From Verrucomicrobiota bacterium (GTDB lineage: Bacteria > Verrucomicrobiota > Verrucomicrobiia > Limisphaerales > PALSA-1396): a stretch of DNA of 64,000 nt. The translations under genes were made by a program, and so were the position numbers. The stretch is taken from assembly GCA_016200005.1 (NCBI GenBank), contig JACQFP010000087.1, positions 1 through 64,000 of the forward strand, in the 5' to 3' direction. Under the pieces are notes generated by a model that worked only from the letters and a program-made list of their open reading frames with translations, had not been told where the DNA came from and did no database searches. This document shows positions 21,326 to 63,838 of this stretch, in pieces; within the stretch, counting starts at the first letter, position 1; each line of letters starts with the position of its first letter.

Positions 21326-21525
21326 AGGTGTGGAAAAATATTATTCCGCGAGCTTCTTCTTTGTCACTGTCTAATTCTGTTGGGCTTTGTACCTGATTTC
21401 CTTTGGGCCATCGGACACGCTAAAGCGTGAACTCCAACGTCGCGCACGGGCCGTTTGCGTTGAAGTTCAACCTTCAGGTTGTTCCTGTCTGCATCAAAGG
21501 GAATCAAGTGCATCGCCCAATATTG

Positions 21526-35823: not shown

Positions 35824-36126
35824 AGCTGTTGCCAGAATACATTTCCCAACCGAAATACGCAAACCCCTCACCCGGCCTTCAGCCACCCTATCCATGAACC
35901 TCGTAGCAGCGGACGTGAGTCCGTTCCATCTGAATTCGATGAAAGTCAGAGCCGACTGACGTCGGCTGCTACAGCCAGCCCCGATTCGGAGGCGGGGTTC
36001 GGGTTCAAAGCGCGAAAATCTTTTTCGGTGAATTCTCTTCCCATCGGATGAAGAGAGAGAAGGGTTGAGGGAAAATCCGGAAATTAAGAGGGGCGGTTCC
36101 CCGGCTCGGAAGGGTTGGAGTTGGTT
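35824..36126. other. Gene-free interval with a palindromic repeat
   Basis: 303 bp between rsmE and the hydroxylase gene. It contains the imperfect inverted repeat at 35903-35972 and purine-rich sequence (GAAGAGAGAGAAGGGTTGAGGG). No ORF with coding character is seen. Confidence 0.5.
35903..35972. repeat. Imperfect inverted repeat GTAGCAGCGGACGTGAGTCC ... GGCTGCTAC
   Basis: Left arm 35903-35923 and right arm 35951-35972 (GCCGACTGACGTCGGCTGCTAC) pair with a few mismatches. The right arm also carries its own small palindrome GACGTC. Same style as the repeat at 19784-19858; likely a dispersed palindromic element. Confidence 0.6.
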
Positions 36127-48928: not shown

Positions 48929-49684
48929 ATGAATGTCGCGCGCTCAGAAGCGGAATCAGCCTTGCCGGGCCAGGGCACGCACGCGGAATTTCCACCCACC
49001 CACTGGTCCAGAATCTTGAGCGCGGGCGCATGCGCGTCGCAGGGCGATTCGCCGGAACTGGAGGAACTTTGCCGCGCCTATTGGCCGCCGCTGTATGCGT
49101 TCCTCCTGCGGCAAGGCCGTTCGCCGCACGACGCCTAAGACTTGGTGCAAGGCTTTCTGGCCCGTTTACTGGCGCGTGAGGACCTGGCGGGCGTGGGGCC
49201 GGAGAAGGGACGCTTCCGCACGTTTCTGCTCACCTCGCTGCGAAATTTCGTGATCAAGCAAGCCTTGCGCGAGAAGGCGCTCAAACGCGGCGCCGGGCAG
49301 ATTCCCATTTCGATCAACGCCGAGGAGGCGGAGCGGCTTTGCGGGCCGGACCTGACGGCCACCTCGCCCGAAGCCGCCTTTGATCGGCGCTTCGCCCAAG
49401 CCGTGGTCACGCGCGCCTTCGCCACACTGCGCGAGGAACATCGCGCCCGCGACAAGGAGAAAATGTTTGCCGCGCTTGCGCCGCACCTCGACGGCACCGA
49501 ATCGGAGGGATACGAGCGCACCGCCACGCAACTGGGCATGACGCCGGGCGCCGTGGCGGTGGCGGTTCACCGCCTCCGGGGACGGCTGCGCGAACTGTTG
49601 CGGGCCGAAGTCCGGCAGCTTTGCGCTTCCGCCGCCGAGGAAGAGCAGGAGTTGAAATACTTGCTGGAAGTCTGGTCGCGTTGA
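48929..49684 (+). pseudogene. ECF-type sigma factor split by one in-frame stop codon (TAA at 49136-49138)
   Basis: Two frames in the same phase give one sigma-factor sequence: [16 protein letters not shown] ... [23 protein letters not shown], stop, then DLVQGFLARLLAREDLAGVGPEKGRFRTFLLTSLRNFV ... YERTATQLGMTPGAVAVAVHRLRGRLRELL. Related sigma factors read SP-DAQDL-QGF here, so a CAA (Gln) has become TAA; a single C to T change. Region 2 would stop inside its key helix, leaving no complete sigma factor unless the stop is read through or translation restarts at GTG 49145. The region 4 part has no other damage, so the change looks recent. Start chosen at ATG 48929; the frame runs from 48908. Divergent from acnA; upstream of the WD40 kinase. 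Confidence 0.85.
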
Positions 49685-49690
49685 GCATGA

Positions 49691-49798
49691 CGCGCGGCGT
49701 TCACGCCGCTTCAAGGTCCGACCGGGTTGGTGCGTGCGTCCGTCTTGAAATTGTCGCTCGTAGGCATTCGGATGCTGAAGCGGCGTGAACGCCGCGCG
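49691..49798. repeat. Perfect 22-bp inverted repeat between sigma factor and kinase
   Basis: Arms 49691-49712 and 49777-49798 (CGCGCGGCGTTCACGCCGCTTC and its exact complement) flank a 64-nt centre. Each arm is itself a hairpin (GCGGCGT-TC-ACGCCGC). A large cruciform or a stem with two internal hairpins is possible; it lies 7 bp past the sigma stop. Confidence 0.8.
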
Positions 49799-49875
49799 CC
49801 GGACGCAACTTGCCGCGTCTGTGCGTCCAGACTGGTTCGCGACGTAATCCCGCAGCCTCGCTGCGGCTTAATCAG

Positions 49876-52800
49876 ATGGTGGCAGCCACCTCAGATTCAG
49901 GAACGAAAGTTTGTCGCCGCTGCGGTGAGCCGCTGGCGGGTGCGGAGCTTTCTGGCAATTGCCCGCGCTGTCTCACCGCGCTGCTTCTGTCACCCGACAC
50001 ACCCGAGCCGGGTGAAACGTCGCCGGCTCCAATTCTGCGGCGCTTGGGGGATTATGAACTGCTGGAAGAAGTCGCGCGGGGCGGCATGGGCGTCGTGTTC
50101 CGCGCGCGTCAATCCAGCCTCGGCCGCGAAGTAGCCGTCAAGGTTTTGCGGGACGCCTGGCTGGCCACGCCGATTCAAGTCAAACGCTTTCGCGCCGAGG
50201 CGGCCAATGCGGCGAAGTTGAAACATCCGAACATCGTGCCAGTGCATGAGGTGGGCGAACAAAGCGGCCAACATTACTTCGCGATGGATTTGATCAAGGG
50301 GACGAACCTCGCTGAGTTGACTCGAGATGGACCCTTGCCACCGCGCCGGGGCGCGGAGTTGGTCGAGAAAGTGGCGGAGGCGGTGCAGCACGCGCACCAG
50401 GAAGGCGTGCTCCATCGCGATCTCAAGCCCTCGAATGTGCTCCTCGATGCACAAGGCGAGCCGCAGGTGACGGACTTCGGCCTAGCCCGACCAATGGATG
50501 ACGATAGTTCGCTGACACTCACGGGACAGGTGTTGGGGACTCCCGGTTACATCGCGCCGGAGCAGGCCAAAGGGGGCGGCACGGTGGGCCCGGCGGCGGA
50601 TGTGTATGGATTGGGAGCCCTGCTTTTCCATCTGCTCACGGGTCGGGCGCCGTTTGTCGGAGCGAGCGCGGCGGAGACGCTGACGCAGGTGTTGCAGCAG
50701 GAGCCATTGTCGCCGCGGTTGCTGAATCCGGCCGTGCCGATGGATTTGGCGGCGGTGTGTGGGAAGTGTTTGGCGAAGTTGGCCGGCCAACGGTACGCGA
50801 GTGCCAGGGAGCTGGCCGAGGACCTGCGGCGGTTCCTCGATGGCCAAGCCACGCGGGCGCGGCCCGCAGGGGTGGTGGAGCGGGGGGTGCGGTGGTGCCG
50901 GCGTAAACCCGCGCTGGCCGGCACGCTCGCCAGTGCTTTGTTGCTGCTCATCGTGGTGGCGGTGGGCGCGCCGATCGCCGCCTACCGCATCAACCGTGAG
51001 CGGAGCACGGCGCGGCAGCTCTTATACGCGGCAGACATGCGGGTCGTGCAACAGGCGATTGAAGAAGGCGACCTTGGCCGCGCTCGCGAACTGCTCGCGT
51101 ACCATGTCCCCACGGCGGCGGCAACCGACTTGCGCGGATTCGAATGGCGCTATTTCAGTCACCGTGCCCGCGGCGATCAACTGGCGACGATTGAATCTGA
51201 TGTAAGGAACGTCCGCCATCTGGCGGTTTCGTCGGACGGCCACTTCGTCGCGGCGGGCCGGCGCGTGTGGAATGCGTCGTCGCAGAAACTGGTTTTGGAC
51301 CAGAGCTTGGACGAAGGAGACAGAGCTTTGGCTTTTCTGCCGCACAGCTATGTTCTGCTCATCGCTGCCCGAGACGGTTTGAAGCGCCGGGACTTGCTGA
51401 CGGGTGACGGAGGAATGCTTCTGCCCGGCGAAACGAATGTGTCGGCGTTTGCATTCTCAAAGTCCGGGCAATGGCTGGCCATTGGGAGCGACAGCGGTCC
51501 AACCCAGGGATTGAAAGTGTATGACGCTCGCGCATGGACCTTGACCGGCTGCAACACGAGCCTCTGGTTCGACCCTCTCTTTGGCGCGAAGGCGCTGGCC
51601 TTTTCGCCAGACGAGTCGGTGCTCGTGACCGCCGCCGGGGATGCCAGAACAGACGCGAGCGAACTGCAATGCTGGGAGGTGCCTTTGCTGAAAGCGCTGC
51701 CGTTCCCGACCAACACCGTGAAGAACGCCGCGTGCATCAGCTTCTCGCCGGATGGGGGCCAGTTGTTCACCGGCTCCTGGGATGGCGTTGTCCGCGTTTG
51801 GGATGCTAAGACCCGGACCGAATTGCCGAATCGCCGATCCGTCCAACATCATCGCAGTTGGATTGCGGACATGGCTTTTCTGCCCGGCAGCCACCAGCTC
51901 GTGACGGCTGGCTCGGACCGCTGCGTTCGCCTCTGGGGAACGGAGCTTGCGGAACGGCCGGTGACGTTGCGGGGACATACGGCTGAACTCCGGGCCATGG
52001 CGCTGACCACGAATGGCGAGATTTTCAGCGTCAGCGAGGATGGGACGATAAACGAGTGGTCCGCCCGTTCGGCGCACCAGGGCGAATGGCTTTCGCAAAA
52101 GGAACCGCGCCTCGTGCCCGTTGGTTTGTCTGCTGACGGTCAGGTGGCGGTGACGCTGGCAGAGGGTGCGCTCAAGTTTTGGGATGTGAGCCAGCGAGAG
52201 TTCAGCGAAATGATCCCTCGCCGCTGGGAAGCAAACCAATTCAAAGAACTGCAAGTTGATTCAGATCGCGCTGAGGAAACCCTCACCATCTCGCCCGATC
52301 TGAAGTGGCTTGTCGTCGTCCGTCTCGATCAACCGACGCAGCTCTGGAATGTAGGCGAACGCACACTGCGAGTACTCCCCAGCATTGGGGGGTGGCGCGT
52401 CTTCGCTGTTTTCTCGCCGGACAGCCAAATCCTGGCCGCGCCGATATCTGCGGATGCGGTAGCGCTATGGAACCCAACGACCGGGCGGCAGCTTGCTTCG
52501 ATCCCGTGGCCGGTGCCTAGCGAAGCGACCGTGTCATTTGCCGCTGTCGCGCACATCCTGGCCCTCGGCGGACGAACCAATGTTTTGCTGTGGGACTTGC
52601 GGACGCAGCAACGCCTCAGCCAATTCGCCATTCAGGGTGATCGTTCGATTGCCCTTTCACCGGACGCGAAGTTGCTGGCGACCGGTAGCAGGGATCAGAA
52701 GGTTCGACTCTACGATTGCCAAACGGGACAGAAGTTTTCGGCCCCGCTGCTGGGCCACCTTTCCGGCGTCGAGCGCGTTTCCTTTGCACCGGATGGACGG

Positions 52801-53010
52801 ACTCTCGTGAGCGCCAGCCGTCAATGGGTGAAATTATGGAATCTGGCCACCCGGCGGGAGGTCGCTTCCTACCAGCAGCCGGCGCGGGTCCTTCTCACGA
52901 CCTTCTCCACCGATGGCAGCACGCTGCTGACCTCTGACGGCGCGGGCCACTACATCCAAATCTGGCGCGCACCCGCACTCCCTGGGACTGAACATCTGAG
53001 CCACCCTTGA
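49876..53010 (+). CDS. Membrane-anchored Ser/Thr protein kinase with zinc ribbon and WD40 domain
   Basis: 1044 aa from the ATG at 49876. Order: zinc ribbon (C13-x2-C16 ... C29-x2-C32), kinase domain about 60-330 with GGMGVVF loop, K89 in VAVKVL, HRDLKPSN (D182), DFGLA (D200) and GTPGYIAPEQ, one transmembrane segment about 345-370 (ALAGTLASALLLLIVVAVGAPIAA), then some 600 residues of WD40 repeats (for example LAFSPDESVLVTAAGDA, ISFSPDGGQLFTGSWDGVVRVWD, FLPGSHQLVTAGSDRCVRLWG). All catalytic residues are present. Kinases of this type often pair with a sigma factor in Planctomycetes/Verrucomicrobia; here that partner is broken. Likely senses an external state through the propeller (inference). 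Confidence 0.92.
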   Translation: MVAATSDSGTKVCRRCGEPLAGAELSGNCPRCLTALLLSPDTPEPGETSPAPILRRLGDYELLEEVARGGMGVVFRARQSSLGREVAVKVLRDAWLATPIQVKRFRAEAANAAKLKHPNIVPVHEVGEQSGQHYFAMDLIKGTNLAELTRDGPLPPRRGAELVEKVAEAVQHAHQEGVLHRDLKPSNVLLDAQGEPQVTDFGLARPMDDDSSLTLTGQVLGTPGYIAPEQAKGGGTVGPAADVYGLGALLFHLLTGRAPFVGASAAETLTQVLQQEPLSPRLLNPAVPMDLAAVCGKCLAKLAGQRYASARELAEDLRRFLDGQATRARPAGVVERGVRWCRRKPALAGTLASALLLLIVVAVGAPIAAYRINRERSTARQLLYAADMRVVQQAIEEGDLGRARELLAYHVPTAAATDLRGFEWRYFSHRARGDQLATIESDVRNVRHLAVSSDGHFVAAGRRVWNASSQKLVLDQSLDEGDRALAFLPHSYVLLIAARDGLKRRDLLTGDGGMLLPGETNVSAFAFSKSGQWLAIGSDSGPTQGLKVYDARAWTLTGCNTSLWFDPLFGAKALAFSPDESVLVTAAGDARTDASELQCWEVPLLKALPFPTNTVKNAACISFSPDGGQLFTGSWDGVVRVWDAKTRTELPNRRSVQHHRSWIADMAFLPGSHQLVTAGSDRCVRLWGTELAERPVTLRGHTAELRAMALTTNGEIFSVSEDGTINEWSARSAHQGEWLSQKEPRLVPVGLSADGQVAVTLAEGALKFWDVSQREFSEMIPRRWEANQFKELQVDSDRAEETLTISPDLKWLVVVRLDQPTQLWNVGERTLRVLPSIGGWRVFAVFSPDSQILAAPISADAVALWNPTTGRQLASIPWPVPSEATVSFAAVAHILALGGRTNVLLWDLRTQQRLSQFAIQGDRSIALSPDAKLLATGSRDQKVRLYDCQTGQKFSAPLLGHLSGVERVSFAPDGRTLVSASRQWVKLWNLATRREVASYQQPARVLLTTFSTDGSTLLTSDGAGHYIQIWRAPALPGTEHLSHP

Positions 53011-53035
53011 ATGAAGCATGAGAAAGGCTGGAAAT

Positions 53036-54034
53036 ATGACAACTCGCCGCGGCATAGGAATTCCACAACGGCTTCCCATTTCAGCCGAGACAGCATGCAC
53101 AAACTGTCCTGCACGGTCCGCCGCTCGGGGTGAACTCAGAGAAGCCGGCAATGTTTCACTCGGCTCCAGGATGCCGGGTAGATCATCCACCGGTGCTTTT
53201 ACTCTCATCGAATTGCTGGTTGTCATCGCCATCATCGCGATCCTGGCGGCGATGCTGTTGCCTGCGTTGGTGAAGACGAAGCAGAAGGCCCAAGGCATCG
53301 CCTGCCTCAACAACCTCAACCAACTCCAACGCGCCTGGTTCATGTATGCGGGTGACCACAACGACAAGCTGGTGCCCAACCTCGGCCTGTTTTTCAAGGA
53401 CCAGGGGGTCCTGACCACGGACAACACCTGGATGATGGGCGGGCTGACTTTGGACGGCGAACGGATCAATAACGCCGACAACACCAACACGTTTTACCTG
53501 AAACAGAGCCTGCTCTTCCCGTATTTTCGTTCGTTCGGCATCTTCAAATGTCCCGGCGACCGCAGCACCGCGACCCTCTGGGGCGTTCGTTACCCGCGAG
53601 TTCGCAGCCTCTCCATGAACATCTGGCTCGGTCGCTACCTGCCCGACGGCCGTCTGGGAGGCTTTCCGGAAGGCCCTCCCTTTTTCGGTGACGGCGCCTA
53701 CCGCATCAACGTCAAGCTCAGTGATCTCACGGTTCCGCCACCCGTGCAGACGTTCGTGTTCATTGACGAGCGCGAGGACAGCATCGGCGACTGCGGGTTC
53801 TACGTCGGCATGGGGCAGCGCGGCAGCACTGCATACTGGGTTGATCTGCCGGCCGCCTACCATAACGGGTCCGCCGGGCTGTCGTTCGCCGACGGCCACG
53901 CCGAAACCAAACGCTGGCTGGACGCGCGCACGAGGCCGCCGCTGCGCCCGAACCAGCCCCTCGATCACCCCTTCTCCAGTCCAAACAACCCAGATGTAAA
54001 GTGGCTTCAAGACCGTGCGACCGGAAGGCAATAG
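53036..54034 (+). CDS. Prepilin-like protein with H-X9-DG domain
   Basis: 332 aa from ATG 53036, preceded by GAGAAAGG; ATG 53018 and ATG 53171 are alternatives. Prepilin signal [24 protein letters not shown], preceded by G-A (cleavage after G). The C-terminus has [20 protein letters not shown], where [12 protein letters not shown] is the H-X9-DG motif of prepilin-like proteins common in Planctomycetes and Verrucomicrobia. With start 53171 the leader would be 8 residues, which is normal for prepilins; the longer leader is odd. Function unknown, likely a surface pseudopilus-like protein. Confidence 0.8.
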
Positions 54035-54091
54035 AGCCAGCTTCATCCAATCTCCCAGCTTCTCGACTCATTCGACCTGCGTTTCACTGTG

Positions 54092-54183
54092 TTTCACGCA
54101 TGGCATTTGGGGAGAATCCGTTGGTTTGCTCGCAGGGCTCCACCGCTCTGGGTGTAATGTCCGATGCTATTTGCGGCTTATTA
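54092..54183 (+). promoter_or_regulatory. 92-nt conserved upstream element, copy A
   Basis: Matches 55915-56006 without gaps at 79 of 92 positions (86%). It ends 68 nt before the ATG at 54252 of an exported protein. Long identical blocks: GGAGAATCCGTTG, GGGTGTAATGTCCGA, CGGCTTATTA. Could be a promoter/leader module, a structured RNA or a mobile palindrome remnant. See findings. Confidence 0.55.
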
Positions 54184-54251
54184 TGCTGAAGAACGAAGAT
54201 GGAAGCGATGGCTTCCCGCACAAGTACGAACAACGCAGAACAGACTCGAAC

Positions 54252-55631
54252 ATGAAAACCAACAACAGTCTTTTAATGTCCGCCGCGCTCTTGGCCATGG
54301 CGATGAGCAGCTTTGGCCAACCAGACATCACCCAGCAACCGACAAATCAAATGCCCTATGTCGGCAGCACCGCGACCTTCAGCGTCGCGGCCAGTGGCTC
54401 GCCCACGCCGACGTACCAGTGGCGCTTCAACGGCACCGAGCTCCTCGACAAAACCAACACCAGCCTCAGCCTGGTCAACGTGCAATTCACCAACGCCGGC
54501 CCGTATTCGGTGGTGGTGAGCAACGATGGCGGCTCTTTCACCAGCCAGGTGGCCTGGCTCTCGGTGCTTCCCACGAACGTCGTGAATCTGGGTGATCTTG
54601 AACTGCGCTTTGGCGTGCCGACGAACCTGACATCGCTGAACTCCAGTTATTTGGAGGATGAGTCCAGCATCAGCACGGACGGGCTTACAATCTTTTTCGA
54701 GTCCGACAGACCTGGCGGTTCTGGATTGGTTGATATTTGGACGTCCACGCGGCCGACAGCAGCTTCGCCTTGGGGCGCGCCGGTTAACCTGGGTGCTCCC
54801 GTCAACAGCGCATCGGACGACGGCAGTCCCAGGATTTCGCCGGACGGATTGTCGCTCTACTTCGGGAGCTTCCGAGCCGGAGGCGCCGGGAGCGGCGACA
54901 TTTGGGTCGCCACCCGGCCAACGCCCACCGATCCATTCGGTGCGCCGGTGAACCTTGGCCCGGAGGTCAACAGCGCTTCGGAGGAGTTTGGACCCTCGAT
55001 TACGGCGGACGGTCTCACCTTGCTCTTCTCCGCCATAGACCGACCCGGCGGATTGGGTGGGGGCGACATCTGGATCAGCACGCGGACAAATTCCACGGCA
55101 CCGTGGGAGCCTGCGCGCAACCTCGGAGCACCCGTGAATACATCGTACTATGATGTATTCCCGTGCCTCTCCACAGACGGCTTGTTGCTCTTCTTCATGT
55201 CCGATCGCGCGAACCCCGGGACCGGTAACGCCTGGGTTGCCAAACGCGCCACAACCGCGTCGCCGTTCGGCCCGCCCGTCCGGATTCGCGCCATCGCCGA
55301 ACCTACTGTCCGCGCGCGACCGCACGCCATTTCCGCTGACGGAACCACACTCTACTTCGGTTCTGACCGCAGTGGTGGCCTGGGCAATTGGGACCTCTGG
55401 CAGATCAGCGTGACAAGGTTGCCCGCGTTGACCGCGCTGGGCGTGAGCGCGAATGGCGAATTTCAGTTCGAGTTGCTGGGCCGCGCAGGGGCGACCTACG
55501 ACATTGAAGTCTCGCCGGACTTCAGCACATGGACGCCGTGGGTCAGGACCAACACCAGCGACCGCGTGGAGCTTTCCGACCCGGCTTCGGCTCCAGAAGG
55601 CCACCGTTTCTACCGCGCCTTGAGCCACTGA
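54252..55631 (+). CDS. Exported protein with Ig-like domain and WD40/PD40-like propeller
   Basis: 459 aa from ATG 54252 with signal peptide (MKTNNSLLMSAALLAMAMSSFG). Residues about 20-105: Ig-like domain (TQQPTNQMPYVGSTATFSVAASGSPTPTYQWRFNG). Residues about 130-400: five beta-propeller-like repeats of the PD40/TolB kind (SISTDGLTIFFESDRPGGSG, RISPDGLSLYFGSFRAGGAG, SITADGLTLLFSAIDRPGG, CLSTDGLLLFFMSDRAN, AISADGTTLYFGSDRSGG). C-terminal 60 residues end in HRFYRALSH, the same type of tail as in other secreted proteins here. Probably binds at the cell surface. Confidence 0.75.
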   Translation: MKTNNSLLMSAALLAMAMSSFGQPDITQQPTNQMPYVGSTATFSVAASGSPTPTYQWRFNGTELLDKTNTSLSLVNVQFTNAGPYSVVVSNDGGSFTSQVAWLSVLPTNVVNLGDLELRFGVPTNLTSLNSSYLEDESSISTDGLTIFFESDRPGGSGLVDIWTSTRPTAASPWGAPVNLGAPVNSASDDGSPRISPDGLSLYFGSFRAGGAGSGDIWVATRPTPTDPFGAPVNLGPEVNSASEEFGPSITADGLTLLFSAIDRPGGLGGGDIWISTRTNSTAPWEPARNLGAPVNTSYYDVFPCLSTDGLLLFFMSDRANPGTGNAWVAKRATTASPFGPPVRIRAIAEPTVRARPHAISADGTTLYFGSDRSGGLGNWDLWQISVTRLPALTALGVSANGEFQFELLGRAGATYDIEVSPDFSTWTPWVRTNTSDRVELSDPASAPEGHRFYRALSH

Positions 55632-56171
55632 GGCGGCGCAGTGCATTTCCGCTCGCGTGAGCGGAGGGCGCGTCTTGGCAACACCGTGCGGGCGCCAAGG
55701 CCTGCCCGTTCTGGAGACTGAACACGAAAGGCTGAACGCCTATGAACATCACGATCAACCAGCCGATTCGTTTCGTGGCGAGGCAACTCCGTCTCGTTTC
55801 GTTACGGTGGAAACAGTGCGGCGCCAGGGCGATGAACGCTTTCTGGAGTTTCTGCACTTACACCAATTCCGCTCGCCCCTGCTTGGCGAAGGATTTCCAA
55901 ATGCGATCCAAATATTTCACGAATGGCATTTGTGGAGAATCCGTTGAGGTGCTCTCCGGGCACCGCCGCTCCGGGTGTAATGTCCGAAGCCATTTCCGGC
56001 TTATTAAGGAGGCGGGTGCCGGAGTTCGTGCGGGCAAGGCGCTGTAGTCGGTGATTACGTGCAGCGAAACACCCTGCGACGGAATGGCGGCATGACGGAA
56101 TTGGAATTCCGTCTTCAACCCAGCCTTCCGCAGTAGTCAAAAAGTTAAACAAAAACGAAAAGACAGAACCT
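55632..56171. other. Gene-free interval with palindromes and a conserved element
   Basis: 540 bp. Contains a small hairpin (CCGCTCGCGTGAGCGG, about 55659), the 92-nt element copy B at 55915-56006, and a 9-bp palindrome GACGGAATT-GG-AATTCCGTC at 56094-56113. Open frames here are not backed by any domain or codon pattern. Last 40 nt before the esterase start are A-rich (AAAAAGTTAAACAAAAACGAAAAG), likely its leader. Confidence 0.5.
55915..56006 (+). promoter_or_regulatory. 92-nt conserved upstream element, copy B
   Basis: Second copy of the element, 166 nt before the ATG of the GDSL esterase at 56172. Thirteen substitutions relative to copy A, no indels; the identity drops outside. Frame gives MAF-ENPL-CS in both copies, but without a conserved reading frame downstream. 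Confidence 0.55.
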
Positions 56172-57128
56172 ATGAAGACAATCAAAAACCTCGCATTCGC
56201 GACCCTGGCGATTGCTCTGCTGTTCCAAACTTCGATCACGCGGGCCGACGATTCGACGCCGTTCAGCCGGATCTTCGTCTTTGGGGACAGCCTCTCGGAT
56301 ACCGGCAACCTTTTCCGACTCAGCGGCGGGTTTCCGCCTCCACCGTATTTCGAGGGCCGGGCCTCCAACGGCCGTCTCTGGGTGGAGCAGTTGGCCGATG
56401 CCCTCGGCATGAGCATCGCCCCCGGTGACAATTACGCGGTCTTCGGGGCCACGACGGGCGACTTCAACTTGAATGATGGTCTCAACGGACGGGTTTACCC
56501 AGGATTGCTTGATGAGATCGCCAGCTTCACAACCACGCGAAGCGCGGCGGAAGCTCAAGGCGCGTTGTTCGTGGTCTGGGCGGGAGCCAACGACTTTTTC
56601 CTGGCGCTCGCGACCGGTCAGGCCCCGGCAGTTCTAATCGGCAACGGTGTGGGCAACACGGTGCAAGCCATTCAACAACTCTGGCAAGCTGGTGCGCGCC
56701 ACATCATGGTGGTCAATGTGCCCGACCTTGGTCTCACGCCTTTCGCGCTCGGCCTGGGCATTGGAAGCCCCCTAACCCAACTCAGTGCGGCCTATAACCA
56801 GGTGCTGAACTCGGCTTTGGACAGCTTCGCCTCCGCGGGCATCCCAACCATTCGAGTGGATGCCTTTGCTTTGCTGCGTGAAATGGTCGCCCAGCCGGCC
56901 CAGTTCGGCTTCACGAACGTAACGGATCAACTCATTGTGGTTGGCGGCAATGCTGACGAATTCCTGTTCTGGGACCGTGTCCATCCGACCACAAAAGGCC
57001 ACGCGGTGGTTGCCAAAGTGGCCGCTGATTCCTTGATCAGCTACTTCTCGCCGCGTCAAGGCGAAGGAACACCCGCCCCACTCATCAACTCCCTTAACGG
57101 CTTGGTGAATGCCTGGGACAAAAGGTGA
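56172..57128 (+). CDS. SGNH/GDSL-family esterase, exported
   Basis: 318 aa with a signal peptide (MKTIKNLAFATLAIALLFQTSITRA). Block I FVFGDSLSDTGNLF (Ser nucleophile), block II Gly in AVFGATTGDFN, block III WAGANDFFL (GxND), block V FWDRVHPTTKGHAVVA with Asp and His of the triad. Length matches the phospholipase/acyltransferase and plant-type GDSL group. Likely a periplasmic or secreted lipase/esterase on acetylated glycans or lipids. Confidence 0.92.
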   Translation: MKTIKNLAFATLAIALLFQTSITRADDSTPFSRIFVFGDSLSDTGNLFRLSGGFPPPPYFEGRASNGRLWVEQLADALGMSIAPGDNYAVFGATTGDFNLNDGLNGRVYPGLLDEIASFTTTRSAAEAQGALFVVWAGANDFFLALATGQAPAVLIGNGVGNTVQAIQQLWQAGARHIMVVNVPDLGLTPFALGLGIGSPLTQLSAAYNQVLNSALDSFASAGIPTIRVDAFALLREMVAQPAQFGFTNVTDQLIVVGGNADEFLFWDRVHPTTKGHAVVAKVAADSLISYFSPRQGEGTPAPLINSLNGLVNAWDKR

Positions 57129-57176
57129 CGATTAGACTACGGTTGCACTGCCGGAGTGGTCCGATTAGGATTGGAT

Positions 57177-57208
57177 CGCCGGCGCGGCGAAGTTCGACCG
57201 CGCCGGCG
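57177..57208. repeat. Perfect 11-bp inverted repeat after the GDSL esterase
   Basis: CGCCGGCGCGG at 57177-57187 pairs with CCGCGCCGGCG at 57198-57208 across a 10-nt loop. No T-tract, so a poor intrinsic terminator. A second hairpin with an AGCCCCCC/GGGGGGCT stem lies at 57300-57317. Confidence 0.6.
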
Positions 57209-57353
57209 TTCAGTTCCGTACGGCCTGCTCCTCCTGGTAGAGCCGGACCGCCTTGAGCTTTTCGGCCACGGTGTAGCGCCGTCGATTTTGGGCGGCGCGA
57301 GCCCCCCTCGGGGGGCTGGGGGTTCTCTTCTCTGCTACTGTTTGTTCATTCAT

Positions 57354-57506
57354 GTTAACACTTCAACGTTGTTCCGCATCGGCTCAGTCACCAAGCTGTT
57401 CACCTGGACCGCGGTGATGCAACTGGCCGAGCAGGGCAAGCTCGATTTGAAGGCGGATGTGAACACGTATCTCAAAGCCTTTAAAATTCCGGTGACGTTT
57501 CCGGGA
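57354..57506 (+). pseudogene. Fragment of a beta-lactamase-family serine hydrolase
   Basis: About 51 codons in frame read NTSTLFRIGSVTKLFTWTAV then MQLAEQGKLDLKADVNTYLK, the S-x-x-K region (here SVTK, intact) and following helix of class C beta-lactamase-like proteins. The N-terminal 40% and everything after 'IPVTFP' are missing; gltD begins at once on the other strand. Preceded by the GC-rich palindromes at 57177-57317. Clear relic of a serine hydrolase gene. Confidence 0.75.
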
Positions 57507-57515
57507 GAGACAGAT

Positions 57516-58982
57516 TCAACTCGTGTTGGTTAACGGCTCCGCCACTTGAATCTGATTTATGTCCTTGGTTTGCTGCGACACATAGCTGTGGATGGCGCGG
57601 GCCGCCTTCCGGCCATCCCGCACGGCATGAACCACCAGACTGGGACCCCGCACCAGGTCGCCACCCGCAAAAACACCCGGCACATTCGTCATCTGGTTCG
57701 CGTCCACCTTCACGGCTCCCCAGTCGTTGACGGCGATCTGTGCCAGATCGCTCCCAGGCGGAAAAGGCACGGGATCAAAACCGTAGGCGACCAAAACAAC
57801 CTCCGCCGGCACCTCGAATTCCGAGCCGGCTATCGCTCGTGGCTTGCGACGGCCACTCGCGTCGGGCGCGCCCAATTCCATGCGAATGCACCGGGCCTGC
57901 GTCACCTCACCCGCGCCGTTGCCGCTGAGCGCGACGGGCGCGATCAGGAATTGAAACTTCGCTCCTTCCTCGATGGCGTTGGCGTATTCCTTGCGGTTGC
58001 CCGGCATGTTTTCCAAATCGCGACGATAGAGACAGAGGGCTTCGCTGGCGCCACACCGAATGGCCGTGCGCAGACAATCCATGGCCGTGTCGCCGCCGCC
58101 CAAAACCGCGACGCGCCGGCCTCGCACTTCGATGGGCGGAATCTCCATCGGGAAATCAACATTCTTTTGGATCAGGAATGGGAGGGCTTGATAGACGCCG
58201 CCCAGTTCCGCGCCAGGAACATCAAGCGGTTTGGCTTGCTGCGCGCCAATGCCTAAAAAGACGGCGTCAAACTCGCGGCGCAAATCTGCCAACGATAAAT
58301 CCCAACCCACCTTCACGCCGAGACGAAACTCCACGCCGCGCTTGCGCAGAATCTCGATTCGCCGCGCCACAATTGTTTTCTCCAATTTGAAAGCCGGGAT
58401 TCCATTGACCAGCAAGCCGCCGGGAAGCATTTGCGATTCAAAAACGGTGACCGCATAACCCAGCTTGGCCAGTTCATCGGCGCAGGCCATGCCGCCCGGC
58501 CCGGAGCCGATGACCGCCGCTTTGAATCCGTTCGGCGTCGCGGGTGTGGTCGCGATGGCGTCGTGTTCGAAGGCGTACTCGTTCAGGAAGCGCTCGATCG
58601 CACCGATGGAAACCGGTTCGCTCCGGCTGTTGAGAATGCACGAGCCTTCGCACAGGCGTTCCTGCGGACAGACGCGCGAACAGATTTCCGGCATGTTGCT
58701 CGTCGAGCCGGAGAGCGCGGCGGCCTCCAGAAAATGTCCCTCCGCCGTCAGGGCCAGCCATTCGGGAATGCGATTCGCCAATGGGCAACCCTCGGCGCAG
58801 GTTGGCTTGGGACATTGGATGCAGCGGCTGGCCTGCTCGCGCGCCGTCGCTTCGTCGTAGGTGGAATAAATTTCCAGGAAATCAGCCGCCCGCTCGACCG
58901 CCGAGCGTTTGGGCGGCGTCGCGCGCGGGACGGAACTCCAATTGTGCTTGGCTTTGCCTTTGCCCGTGGTTTCCTGACTCAT
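57516..58982 (-). CDS. gltD: Glutamate synthase small subunit (NADPH, GltD-like)
   Basis: 488 aa from the ATG at 58982. N-terminal 4Fe-4S region: CIQCPKPTCAEGCPLANRIPEW and CPQERLCEGSCILN; FAD dinucleotide fold AVIGSGPGGMACADELAKLGYAVTVFE; NAD fold VAVLGGGDTAMDCLRTA; and C-terminal VPGVFAGGDLVRGPSLVVHAVRDGRKAARAI. Feeds electrons from NADPH to GltB for glutamate synthesis. No gltB in the window; may also work in other oxidoreductase complexes of this family. Confidence 0.9.
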   Translation of the reverse strand: MSQETTGKGKAKHNWSSVPRATPPKRSAVERAADFLEIYSTYDEATAREQASRCIQCPKPTCAEGCPLANRIPEWLALTAEGHFLEAAALSGSTSNMPEICSRVCPQERLCEGSCILNSRSEPVSIGAIERFLNEYAFEHDAIATTPATPNGFKAAVIGSGPGGMACADELAKLGYAVTVFESQMLPGGLLVNGIPAFKLEKTIVARRIEILRKRGVEFRLGVKVGWDLSLADLRREFDAVFLGIGAQQAKPLDVPGAELGGVYQALPFLIQKNVDFPMEIPPIEVRGRRVAVLGGGDTAMDCLRTAIRCGASEALCLYRRDLENMPGNRKEYANAIEEGAKFQFLIAPVALSGNGAGEVTQARCIRMELGAPDASGRRKPRAIAGSEFEVPAEVVLVAYGFDPVPFPPGSDLAQIAVNDWGAVKVDANQMTNVPGVFAGGDLVRGPSLVVHAVRDGRKAARAIHSYVSQQTKDINQIQVAEPLTNTS

Positions 58983-60686: not shown

Positions 60687-60979
60687 GGCTGGATGGCTCC
60701 ATAACGAACACCGCGCGTCAAGACGCATCTCGGCAACCTGGGCCGCGAAACGCGCATTCTGACCATGCTTCCGCGGCAATCGTGCTGCATTAACTGCTTC
60801 CCTTTGATCGCCAGCCTGGTATAAATTTCTGCCGTGGCCACGAAGTCGAACCTCCAGGATTGGCAAACAGCCCTTCGCTCTGCAACCTGCGGTCCGCGAC
60901 CAATGCACGACTGGATGCGCCACACTCCTCCAACTTTCACGACGTTCCAGCAACCTCAACCCCTGACACAACACACTCC

Positions 60980-63838
60980 ATGAAAACATCGTTGCTCCCG
61001 TCGCAGCACCAACCGGATCGGAAGATCATTTGCTCACAATTTGTCGCCCTGCGCATGCTCTGCCGGTGGATTCCGCAGGGGCTGGGTTGGTTGATCGGGT
61101 GCTGGTTGTTTTTTCACCCGGCTTTTGCTGGCGCACAGACAACCATCTTGTCTGAAGGATTTGAATTCGCGTTTCCGGGCGTTTGGACGGTGGGCAACAC
61201 CGGCAGTGGAGCGACCTGGCGGGATGTCAATGCGACGTTCGGCGGCGAGGGCACACACAGCGGTAATTGGAAAGGCTACTGCGCAGGCACAGCTTATCCC
61301 TTCAATAGCAACGAGCCGAATCCAACCTACACCAACAACATGGCCGCCTACATGGAGACCAATCTCAACCTGCGCGTCTGCCAAAACCGCGCCATCTTGC
61401 GATTCTGGTCGAAGATTCCCTCGATCGAGTCCGGCTTTGACGCGGCCAAGGTGTTCCTTGACGGCACTGTCATCTGGTCGAACAGCAGCCCGCAAGTCGC
61501 GTGGACGGAAGTGGCGTTGGACCTCAGTGCGTTTATCGGCGACTTCCACAAGCTGCGATTCGAGTTCGATTCGGATTTTTCCAATACGGCTGAAGGCTGG
61601 TACCTGGATGACATCAGCGTGACCGCCTACGACACGATGCCACCATCGGTGACGTGTCCGGCCAACATCGTCGTGGACACGGACCCCGGCCAATGCTCGA
61701 AGAGCAACGTGACTTTTCTCGCCACGGTCACCGATAATTGTCCCGGCGTGACGGTCGCGTGTATTCCGCCCAGCGGTTCGACCTTTCCGGCGGGCCTGAC
61801 CGCGGTGACTTGCACGGCCACGGACGCCGCCGGCAATACTGATCAGTGCAGCTTCACCGTAATCGTCCGTGACGAGCCGTTCATCATGTGCCCGTCGAAC
61901 AACGTCGCGCTGGCCTGCTCGAACAGCGCCCGCGTCGATTTCGCCGTCTTCACGAGCAACCAGTGTGCTTACGCCGGAGCGTGCGTCGTTCCTGACAACG
62001 GCAACGGCACGGCGGACCTCCCGCCGCCGGATTGCCAGTATGGGGTGCCGAATGACGCGCTGCGGATCATTAACGGGCTGCCGGTGGGAACGACGATCGA
62101 AATGCCGCCCGTCCTGAAGGATTTCACCTGCGGCACGAGCGTGGTCAGCGTGTGTTCGTTCCCGCCGACGCCGGGCGTGTGCATGGTGCCGGGCGGCACG
62201 CTGGGAGGCGAGAAGGGTTGCAGCGGCGCGACGTTGGCCCTCAAACTGATCGGCACGGGCACGCTGGGCGGATTTAATCGCGCCATCAATCTCCCCGTGG
62301 ACTTTGAAACGCACATCGCCCCGCGCACGTTGGGCGCGCCGGTGCAGAGCTTCAACACGGACTTGTTCCGTTTCTTCGGTCAACTCACGGGCGACCCGGA
62401 TTTTGATTTGTTGCGGATCACGGCCGGCACGGATTTCGGGATGCCCAGTCCCGGCCACACTACGTTGACCAGCCAACCCGGTAACAAGTGGGCGGTGGAC
62501 AGCTTTTTTGACATCACGTACCGGATTGATTTTGTGGGCCATCCAGGTGGAGCGGTGGGAGGCATGTCAGGCTCGACGACGGGCACGATCCGGATTTGGA
62601 CCGGGAGCGGGCCGCCGCCAATCGTGACGTGCACGCCGCCTTCCGGCAGCGACTTCCCATTGGGCACGAACGTGGTGACGTGCGTGGCGAGCAACGTGTG
62701 GGGACGGACGAGCAGTTGCGAGTTCTTCGTAACGGTGTTGCCGGACACGCGACCACCCGACATGCCGTGCCCGTCGAACATCGTGGTGCAGACCTGCTCG
62801 AATAGTTTCCCGGTCGAGTTCTTCCCGATCGCCACCAACCACTGCCCGAACGGTCCGGCCTGCGCTGTCTCCGACAACGGGACCGGCACCGCCGCCCTGC
62901 CCCCGGCGGGTTGCCAATATATCGCCCCGGATGATGTGATGCAGATCATTGACGGGCTGGCCCCCGGAACCACGATCAGGATGACGCCCATTCTCAAGAA
63001 TTTCCTTTGCACCACGAGCGGGGTGGACATTTGTTCGTTCGCGTCCCCAACGCCGGGCGTGTGCCACGAACCGGGCGGCAGTCTGGGCGGCGAAAAGGAA
63101 TGTAGCGATGCCACGCTGGCGCTCGACCTGAACGGCACGGGCACGCTCGCGGGTTACCATCGTGCGCTCAACATCGCCGTTGGTTTTGAAACTCATACCG
63201 CCCCGCGCACGCTGGGCGCGCCGGTGCAGAGTTTCGACACGGACATGTTCCGCTTCTTCGGTCAAATCACGGGCGACCCGGACTTTGATTTGTTGCGGAT
63301 CACAGCTGGCACGGATTTCGGGTTGCCCAGTCCCGGGCACACCATGTTGACCCGGCAGCCGGACGGCACCTGGGCGGTGGACAGTTTCTTCGACATTACC
63401 TACCGGGTTGATTTTGTCGGCGCGGCGGGTGGACCGCTGGCGGGCAGATCCGGTTCGACGACTGGCACGATCCGCATGTTGACCGGGGCCGGGTTGTATC
63501 CGCCCGTGGCCTGCTCGCCGCCCTCGGGCAGCCCGTTTCCACTGGGCGTAACCCTCGTGACTTGCACCGCCAGCAACCAATGGGGCTATACCAATTGCTC
63601 CTTCAAGGTGACGGTGAACCTCACTAGGCCGATGCTGAACGTCGCGCGGCAATCCACCAACATCGTGATTCGCTGGCCGGATGTTTGCACGGCGTTCCGA
63701 TTGCAATCCGCACCGTATCTGACGCCGCCCATACCGTGGATAGACGTGACCAACACCCCGGCGCACGTCGGGTCGGAGTCGCAGGTAATCGTATCCGCTG
63801 TGAACAGCAACAGATTCTTTCGCCTCTATTCACCTTAG
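60980..63838 (+). CDS. Large secreted HYR-domain protein with duplicated module
   Basis: 952 aa from the ATG at 60980 with a signal-like segment (GLGWLIGCWLFFHPAFAGA). N-terminal beta domain (EGFEFAFPGVWTVGNTGSGATWRD) is followed by HYR domains (TCPANIVVDTDPGQC ... TAVTCTATDAAGNTDQCSFTVIV). Two long, closely related modules follow at nt 61889-62767 and 62768-63630; both hold PTPGVC, LGGEK, FETH-APRTLGAPVQSF and DPDFDLLRITAGTDFG. Ends in FRLYSP, a C-terminal tail as in other exported proteins here. Cys-rich, so likely stabilised by disulfides in a surface location. Confidence 0.75.
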   Translation: MKTSLLPSQHQPDRKIICSQFVALRMLCRWIPQGLGWLIGCWLFFHPAFAGAQTTILSEGFEFAFPGVWTVGNTGSGATWRDVNATFGGEGTHSGNWKGYCAGTAYPFNSNEPNPTYTNNMAAYMETNLNLRVCQNRAILRFWSKIPSIESGFDAAKVFLDGTVIWSNSSPQVAWTEVALDLSAFIGDFHKLRFEFDSDFSNTAEGWYLDDISVTAYDTMPPSVTCPANIVVDTDPGQCSKSNVTFLATVTDNCPGVTVACIPPSGSTFPAGLTAVTCTATDAAGNTDQCSFTVIVRDEPFIMCPSNNVALACSNSARVDFAVFTSNQCAYAGACVVPDNGNGTADLPPPDCQYGVPNDALRIINGLPVGTTIEMPPVLKDFTCGTSVVSVCSFPPTPGVCMVPGGTLGGEKGCSGATLALKLIGTGTLGGFNRAINLPVDFETHIAPRTLGAPVQSFNTDLFRFFGQLTGDPDFDLLRITAGTDFGMPSPGHTTLTSQPGNKWAVDSFFDITYRIDFVGHPGGAVGGMSGSTTGTIRIWTGSGPPPIVTCTPPSGSDFPLGTNVVTCVASNVWGRTSSCEFFVTVLPDTRPPDMPCPSNIVVQTCSNSFPVEFFPIATNHCPNGPACAVSDNGTGTAALPPAGCQYIAPDDVMQIIDGLAPGTTIRMTPILKNFLCTTSGVDICSFASPTPGVCHEPGGSLGGEKECSDATLALDLNGTGTLAGYHRALNIAVGFETHTAPRTLGAPVQSFDTDMFRFFGQITGDPDFDLLRITAGTDFGLPSPGHTMLTRQPDGTWAVDSFFDITYRVDFVGAAGGPLAGRSGSTTGTIRMLTGAGLYPPVACSPPSGSPFPLGVTLVTCTASNQWGYTNCSFKVTVNLTRPMLNVARQSTNIVIRWPDVCTAFRLQSAPYLTPPIPWIDVTNTPAHVGSESQVIVSAVNSNRFFRLYSP
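61889..62767 (+). repeat. Module 1 of the duplicated unit in the HYR protein
   Basis: Tandem duplication unit with a period of 879 bp. Starts CPSNNVALACSNS and ends before CPSNIVVQTCSNS of module 2. Long shared stretches at protein and DNA level (for example GGGCGACCCGGA) indicate a recent duplication. Confidence 0.8.
62768..63630 (+). repeat. Module 2 of the duplicated unit in the HYR protein
   Basis: Second copy of the 879-bp unit; begins CPSNIVVQTCSNS and fades after the final HYR-like block (TCTASNQWGYTNCSFKVTV). Divergence from module 1 is scattered, with the LGAPVQSF-xTD and DPDFDLLRITAGTDFG blocks the most conserved. Confidence 0.8.

Follow-up and report, generated by a model that had tools for sequence, protein, structure and literature searches.

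In a gene cluster of a Limisphaerales bacterium (Verrucomicrobiota), a 92-nt intergenic element is present in two copies, each ahead of a gene for an exported protein, and no further copies are detected in the genome. The element can be read, with about an even chance of being correct, as a leader private to this cluster, probably a promoter region, that has been copied within a single assemblage of genes for an ECF sigma factor, a Ser/Thr kinase and a prepilin-like protein. At the same locus in the isolate SJ485, one such leader stands between the prepilin-like gene and an exported gene; the leader would carry a promoter or a 5' control region that lets the genes of the cluster be co-expressed, plausibly under the sigma factor whose gene lies next to that of the kinase, and a new exported gene entering the cluster would keep or acquire a copy. 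In the window, that is, the entire stretch of 64,000 nucleotides that was analysed, the element is present twice, with the segment that carries the Ig/PD40 gene between the copies, so that each exported gene has one. This reading is preferred, at no better than that chance, because the layout recurs with other sequences at other kinase clusters; the window taken alone is equally explained by a neutral duplication at a junction.

Two diverged copies bound to one locus

The copies (Table 1) are identical in 79 of the 92 positions (85.9%), with 0 gaps, and the 13 mismatches consist of four transitions and nine transversions, so that recomputation bears out the two gapless copies of 86% identity described, at the same positions, in an earlier note on this DNA. 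The edges of the pair are sharp, the identity at the 1823-nt offset being 0.10-0.45 in most 20-nt steps outside it, and copy 2 is found with E = 1.9e-24 in a whole-genome BLAST search, which excludes chance. Both copies indeed precede genes for exported proteins that start with MKT: from the end of copy 1 to ATG 54252 (MKTNNS..) there are 68 nt, as previously given, and from the end of copy 2 to ATG 56172 (MKTIKN..) there are 165 nt, one less than claimed. The two proteins are unrelated to each other.

Table 1. The element, its parts and the surrounding genes, with positions in the window
Feature	Position	Strand	Evidence or remark
ECF-type sigma factor gene, in-frame TAA at codon 70 (49136-49138)	48929..49684	+	translation
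Ser/Thr protein kinase with WD40 repeats	49810..53010	+	Pkinase E 2.3e-45, WD40 E 3e-42; crude gene call starts at 50044
Prepilin-like gene	53018..54034	+	N_methyl E 1.4e-06; TIGR02532 above cut-off; crude gene call starts at 53171
92-nt element, copy 1	54092..54183	+	pairwise alignment
31-nt core	54153..54183	+	common to copy 1, copy 2 and SJ485, which all agree in 27 of 31 columns
Exported protein, Ig domain and PD40 beta-propeller repeats	54252..55631	+	Pfam PD40 E 4.4e-26, Ig_3 E 3e-13
Stretch resembling the G039 leader, behind the Ig/PD40 gene	about 55645..55705	+	BLAST 55650-55678, 29 nt, 83%; alignment
92-nt element, copy 2	55915..56006	+	pairwise alignment
Right-hand extension of copy 2	56007..56062	+	common to SJ485, absent from copy 1
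Small palindrome GTAGTC-GGT-GATTAC	56044..56058	+	SJ485 has GCAGTC-GGT-GATTGC; folds within shuffle range
Exported GDSL-type lipase/acylhydrolase	56172..57128	+	Lipase_GDSL E 1.6e-28

The element is bound to its locus and does not represent a genome-wide promoter family, which follows from the two copies in its own genome and the single other copy, at the same locus, among 320 genomes. In the own genome (6.54 Mb in 87 contigs, about 96% complete), both BLAST and a sequence profile find just the two copies, and two further profile matches are non-significant (E 0.46 and 0.55). When 320 genomes of the order were scanned for the core pattern TGTAATGTCCGANGCNATTTNCGGCTTA, allowing up to three mismatches, it was present in two of these, in two places in the own genome and in one place in another, on contig JADLHS010000573.1 of Limisphaerales isolate SJ485, which the taxonomy labels assign to a different family. 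Among the weak profile matches inspected in other genomes, only the one in SJ485 held up; of those rejected, the one in genome G001 falls in what looks like coding sequence, and long open frames contain several of the others. One match (L061) resembles what we take to be a GxxExxY-type gene, a resemblance judged to be due to chance. An early excess of 15-mers in the own genome (93, compared with 51 for the reversed pattern) was likewise dropped, because 28 of the 30 stored places are not the two copies and most of them are in open frames. Exact short blocks of the element are absent from the viral contigs searched, and an exact match to one short block was sought in genome contigs and not found.

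The genome search is the one that the earlier note had proposed, naming copies scattered with no preference for upstream positions as evidence against its view; two copies at one locus were found, none dispersed, and no scattered copies exist. A repeat, one of the possibilities raised in that note, is therefore apt in the sense of a two-copy local duplication, whereas dispersal is not seen and phage and plasmid records contain no match to the element. A dispersed mobile repeat of the MITE or REP type was considered and rejected: in place of many dispersed copies there are two at one locus, the ends of the 92 nt (TTTCAC and CTTATTA) are not mutual inverted repeats, no significant palindromic fold is seen and no transposon end was identified for the element. 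Small mobile intergenic repeats, such as the enterobacterial RU-1/2/3 and MITEs, resemble it in being intergenic and about 100-170 nt long, but they are described as occupying multiple intergenic regions (PMC2759123), unlike the two copies, at one locus and with no terminal inverted repeats seen, that are considered here.

There is no sign of selection on the 92-nt element, because its divergence is about that of fourfold-degenerate sites of the neighbouring genes. The identity at such sites between the window and SJ485 is 80% for the kinase gene (534 sites) and 87% for the prepilin-like gene (123 sites), and that of the element, 86% between the copies and 82% to SJ485, is not above this neutral expectation. 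The blocks that the earlier note singled out as unchanged do lack mismatches; they are, however, no evidence of constraint, because mismatches placed at random often give equal or stronger clustering: with 13 random mismatches, at least eight fall within some 26-nt window in 10.6% of the trials, and an identical run of at least 15 nt appears in 83%.

Two interpretations of the element as something other than a promoter region or a scar can be dismissed almost entirely. A structured RNA, such as a riboswitch-like leader, is a very improbable reading, largely refuted, although the earlier note had entertained it: the fold energies of the copies are within those of shuffled sequences (z 0.16 and -0.92), as are those of the 87-nt stretches of copy 2 and SJ485 (z -0.88 and -0.89), the predicted folds of the two copies differ, no covariation is seen within the 92 nt in the three sequences, and Rfam yields no match on the element, with one sub-threshold match elsewhere in 3 kb. 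What speaks for an RNA is the position in leaders and the small palindrome, where one pair is changed on both sides in SJ485; this is one event in two sequences, and it lies outside the 92 nt and outside copy 1. A remnant of coding sequence can hardly be credited either. Some frames are open in both copies, but the partly open frame of the earlier note is uninformative: over the codon positions of the six frames the mismatches are distributed 5/5/3, 5/3/5 or 3/5/5, with no excess at third positions, and Pfam has no match to the 101-aa frame that spans copy 2.

The SJ485 locus and the possible origin of the pair

In SJ485, the same kinase/WD40 gene (88.5% match to window 49904-53071) is followed by the prepilin-like gene (84.5% match to 53167-54090), approximately 140 nt without a match, the core and then a different exported protein. 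Copy 1 has 33 nt in common with SJ485, at 94% identity, and copy 2 has 87 nt (55976-56062), at 82%. Thus, copy 1 keeps the left flank of the SJ485 locus and copy 2 the right flank, with the 1.73-kb Ig/PD40 segment separating the copies, and, because the flanks match in this manner, the sequences bordering copy 1 on the left and copy 2 on the right are those found together in SJ485. The core of copy 2 is 196 nt away from the ATG, compared with 190 nt in SJ485; if one 1823-nt repeat unit is subtracted, the window would have 314 nt between the prepilin stop and the lipase start, compared with 386 nt in SJ485. From these alignments, the Ig/PD40 segment would have been either gained in the lineage of the window or lost in that of SJ485. 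Farther along the contig of SJ485, past the exported gene, a tyrosine recombinase adjoins a Y2/IS91-type transposase (L139:3002-5043).

The genes at window 49810-54090 are 84-88% identical to those of SJ485, from another family, but the same-genus genome compared matches the prepilin region only weakly (E 1.1e-20). The likeness of the kinase and prepilin-like genes to those of a genome from another family would be compatible with either horizontal transfer or a misbinned contig.

A relative of the Ig/PD40 segment, 74% identical at the DNA level, was detected in contig C441 of genome G039, which belongs to yet another family (the DNA was searched in 320 genomes and the protein in 39, among the best-ranked candidates). 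There, the Ig/PD40 orthologue is located directly behind a kinase/WD40 gene and lies between two 121-nt copies, 86% identical to each other, of another leader; together with two shorter ones, C441 carries four related copies of that leader.

All this could also reflect a neutral scar, which is quite possible, if somewhat short of an even chance: a segment of approximately 1.73 kb with the Ig/PD40 gene would have been inserted or rearranged at an unstable spot, 92 bp would have been duplicated at the junctions, and the copies would have no function. The synonymous-site level of divergence of the element is what such a scar predicts, the relative of the segment sits elsewhere, beside the kinase in G039, and the left edge of copy 1 (54092) falls where the SJ485 homology stops (54090). 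Rearrangement is further suggested by a broken gene nearby and by the transposase and recombinase on the SJ485 contig, and local two-copy intergenic repeats are common in the own genome. Against a scar stand the recurrence of the layout, with other sequences, beside kinases and the position of both window copies ahead of exported genes. The broken gene is a fragment of a beta-lactamase-type serine hydrolase gene (57159-57530, Pfam E 5.2e-14); beside it, the opposite strand has a weak transposase-like stretch (HTH_Tnp_1 E 0.044).

A site of recombination or integration, at which gene cassettes enter and leave element-gene-element layouts behind, is an improbable explanation. Such layouts are seen both in the window and in G039, and the core precedes three different genes (the Ig/PD40 gene, the lipase gene and the gene in SJ485), which speaks for such a site; however, no recombinase in the region of the window is tied to the element, the copies fold poorly, the sequence varies by cluster, and the element is never seen as a dispersed site.

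Leader pairs at other kinase clusters

The evidence that tips the balance towards the cluster-private leader comes from other kinase clusters, in which the layout recurs with sequences that differ between the clusters (the window, C22, C19 and G039). The region C22:185549-192987 of the own genome mirrors the window: a kinase gene (185549-189658), preceded by a sigma-factor gene (184738-185475), is followed by a prepilin-like gene and then by two exported genes, each with its own copy of a 69-nt leader ahead of it (the copies being 88% identical). Downstream of the kinase gene at 50913-54947 of contig C19, 68-nt leaders (78%) precede two exported genes, and another repeat precedes the kinase gene itself and a neighbour gene. 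In G039, exported genes that follow one another beside the kinase of C441 are preceded by local copies of a leader; of the two kinases in the G039 pieces examined (eight of 14 contigs), this one shows the pattern. The proteins downstream of the paired leaders are unrelated (best E 0.016 in eight comparisons), so the leaders appear to have been copied without the genes.

In a sample of the own genome (1.94 Mb, 1373 genes, with crude gene calls and a crude rule for signal peptides), three of nine kinases are followed within 6 kb by a local leader pair that precedes two exported genes, compared with 28 of 1364 other genes (Fisher p 0.0008); when the window pair is left out, the count is two of eight kinases (p 0.012). 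This enrichment is only suggestive because the genes of the comparison group are not independent of one another and because some of the support, namely the C22 case, came to light by inspection; both the calling of genes and the rule for signal peptides are crude as well. The remaining six of the nine kinases have no such pair. In a later batch, collected after the idea had been formulated, one of two kinases, both on C19, had a pair. Leader pairs are also present away from kinases, the same sample containing 19 gene pairs with local leaders, seven of these with both genes judged exported. On C19, 12 kb from the kinase, a 123-nt repeat (82%; L254:7343-7465 and L254:12742-12864, that is, C19:67343 and C19:72742) lies 129 and 139 nt ahead of two genes for exported proteins.

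The leaders of C22 and G039, which come from genomes of two families and both stand behind a kinase (in C22 with a sigma-factor gene before it), share CCGCAMCT-N20-TAMGGAGTG at constant spacing, which looks as a promoter would. Only exact occurrences of this motif count, because, when up to three mismatches are allowed, matches are no more frequent than in shuffled sequence (10 matches in the 395,024 nt of loci from other genomes, compared with 12-20 after shuffling). G039 has three exact occurrences. In the sample of the own genome, the C22 leaders account for one exact occurrence and one that differs at a single position; a second match with one mismatch, at C22:193178, is spaced differently. 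The window copies lack the motif, which counts against the promoter reading but would be compatible with a private promoter recognised by another sigma factor; a scan of the element found no sigma-70-like promoter, which also counts against that reading. The window copies share 92 nt, so two short boxes would be indistinguishable there.

The promoter or leader shared by the two exported genes, one of the possibilities raised in the earlier note, is thus retained in a narrower form, confined to one kinase cluster, given that other clusters have different local leader pairs. A more general scheme, in which each ECF sigma/Ser-Thr kinase cluster of Limisphaerales has a promoter-leader of its own, with a copy placed before each gene for an exported protein that the cluster recruits, so that unrelated surface proteins would be wired to one kinase-controlled sigma factor, is tentative and on balance doubtful; the window pair would be one case of it, and CCGCAMCT-N20-TAMGGAGTG would be the promoter of another cluster type.

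The sigma factor and comparison with known systems

The sigma-factor gene of the window has an in-frame stop (Table 1), with the frame open on both sides of the TAA and the downstream part open from 49142. The segment 49142-49681 matches NCBIfam sigma70-ECF with E 5.7e-07, under the family cut-off, and the Pfam sigma70 r4/r2 matches are weak. The stop reflects either a broken gene or an assembly error, so that, if the cluster's own sigma factor once drove the element, it may no longer function in this genome unless the stop is such an error. Between the sigma-factor and kinase genes, an inverted repeat with 42-nt arms (81% complementary) occupies 49680-49809.

The adjacency of a sigma-factor gene and a Ser/Thr kinase gene is shared with the STPK-linked ECF groups (ECF43, ECF59, ECF61, ECF62, ECF217 and ECF283), in which the kinase is proposed to activate the sigma factor that drives the targets; in the portion of that source available, tested cases are described in ECF43 alone (PMC8999054). 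The window cluster differs in the in-frame stop of its own sigma gene and in the local leader repeats, which are not described in that portion (PMC8999054). The intergenic repeats of halovirus HF2 are comparable to the element as short repeated intergenic sequences and, according to the part of the report available, were cloned upstream of a reporter gene, but they belong to a haloarchaeal virus (PMC8707807), whereas here there are two copies at one bacterial locus. A literature search found no paper combining ECF sigma factor, serine threonine kinase and Verrucomicrobia, and, within the partly available sources of this limited search, no description was found of the recurring layout, in which unrelated exported genes of a sigma/kinase cluster are preceded by local leaders private to that cluster. 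The two-copy local duplication as such is ordinary; the layout that recurs is a possible new form of co-regulation through shared promoters, which is itself known. Should local copies of a leader mark the genes under the control of each cluster, the target sets and candidate promoters of many clusters could be read directly from genomes; otherwise, the pair is no more than a common local duplication at a locus undergoing rearrangement.

The window contains other repeats. A dispersed repeat of approximately 140-160 nt (21375-21522) has relatives on the own contigs C22 and C6 that are 85-88% identical, a 127-nt intergenic repeat (35864-35990) is 88% identical to C20:168982-169107, and a 300-nt direct repeat (82%) at 62165-63346 lies within one long frame (60860-63838) and is an internal protein repeat.
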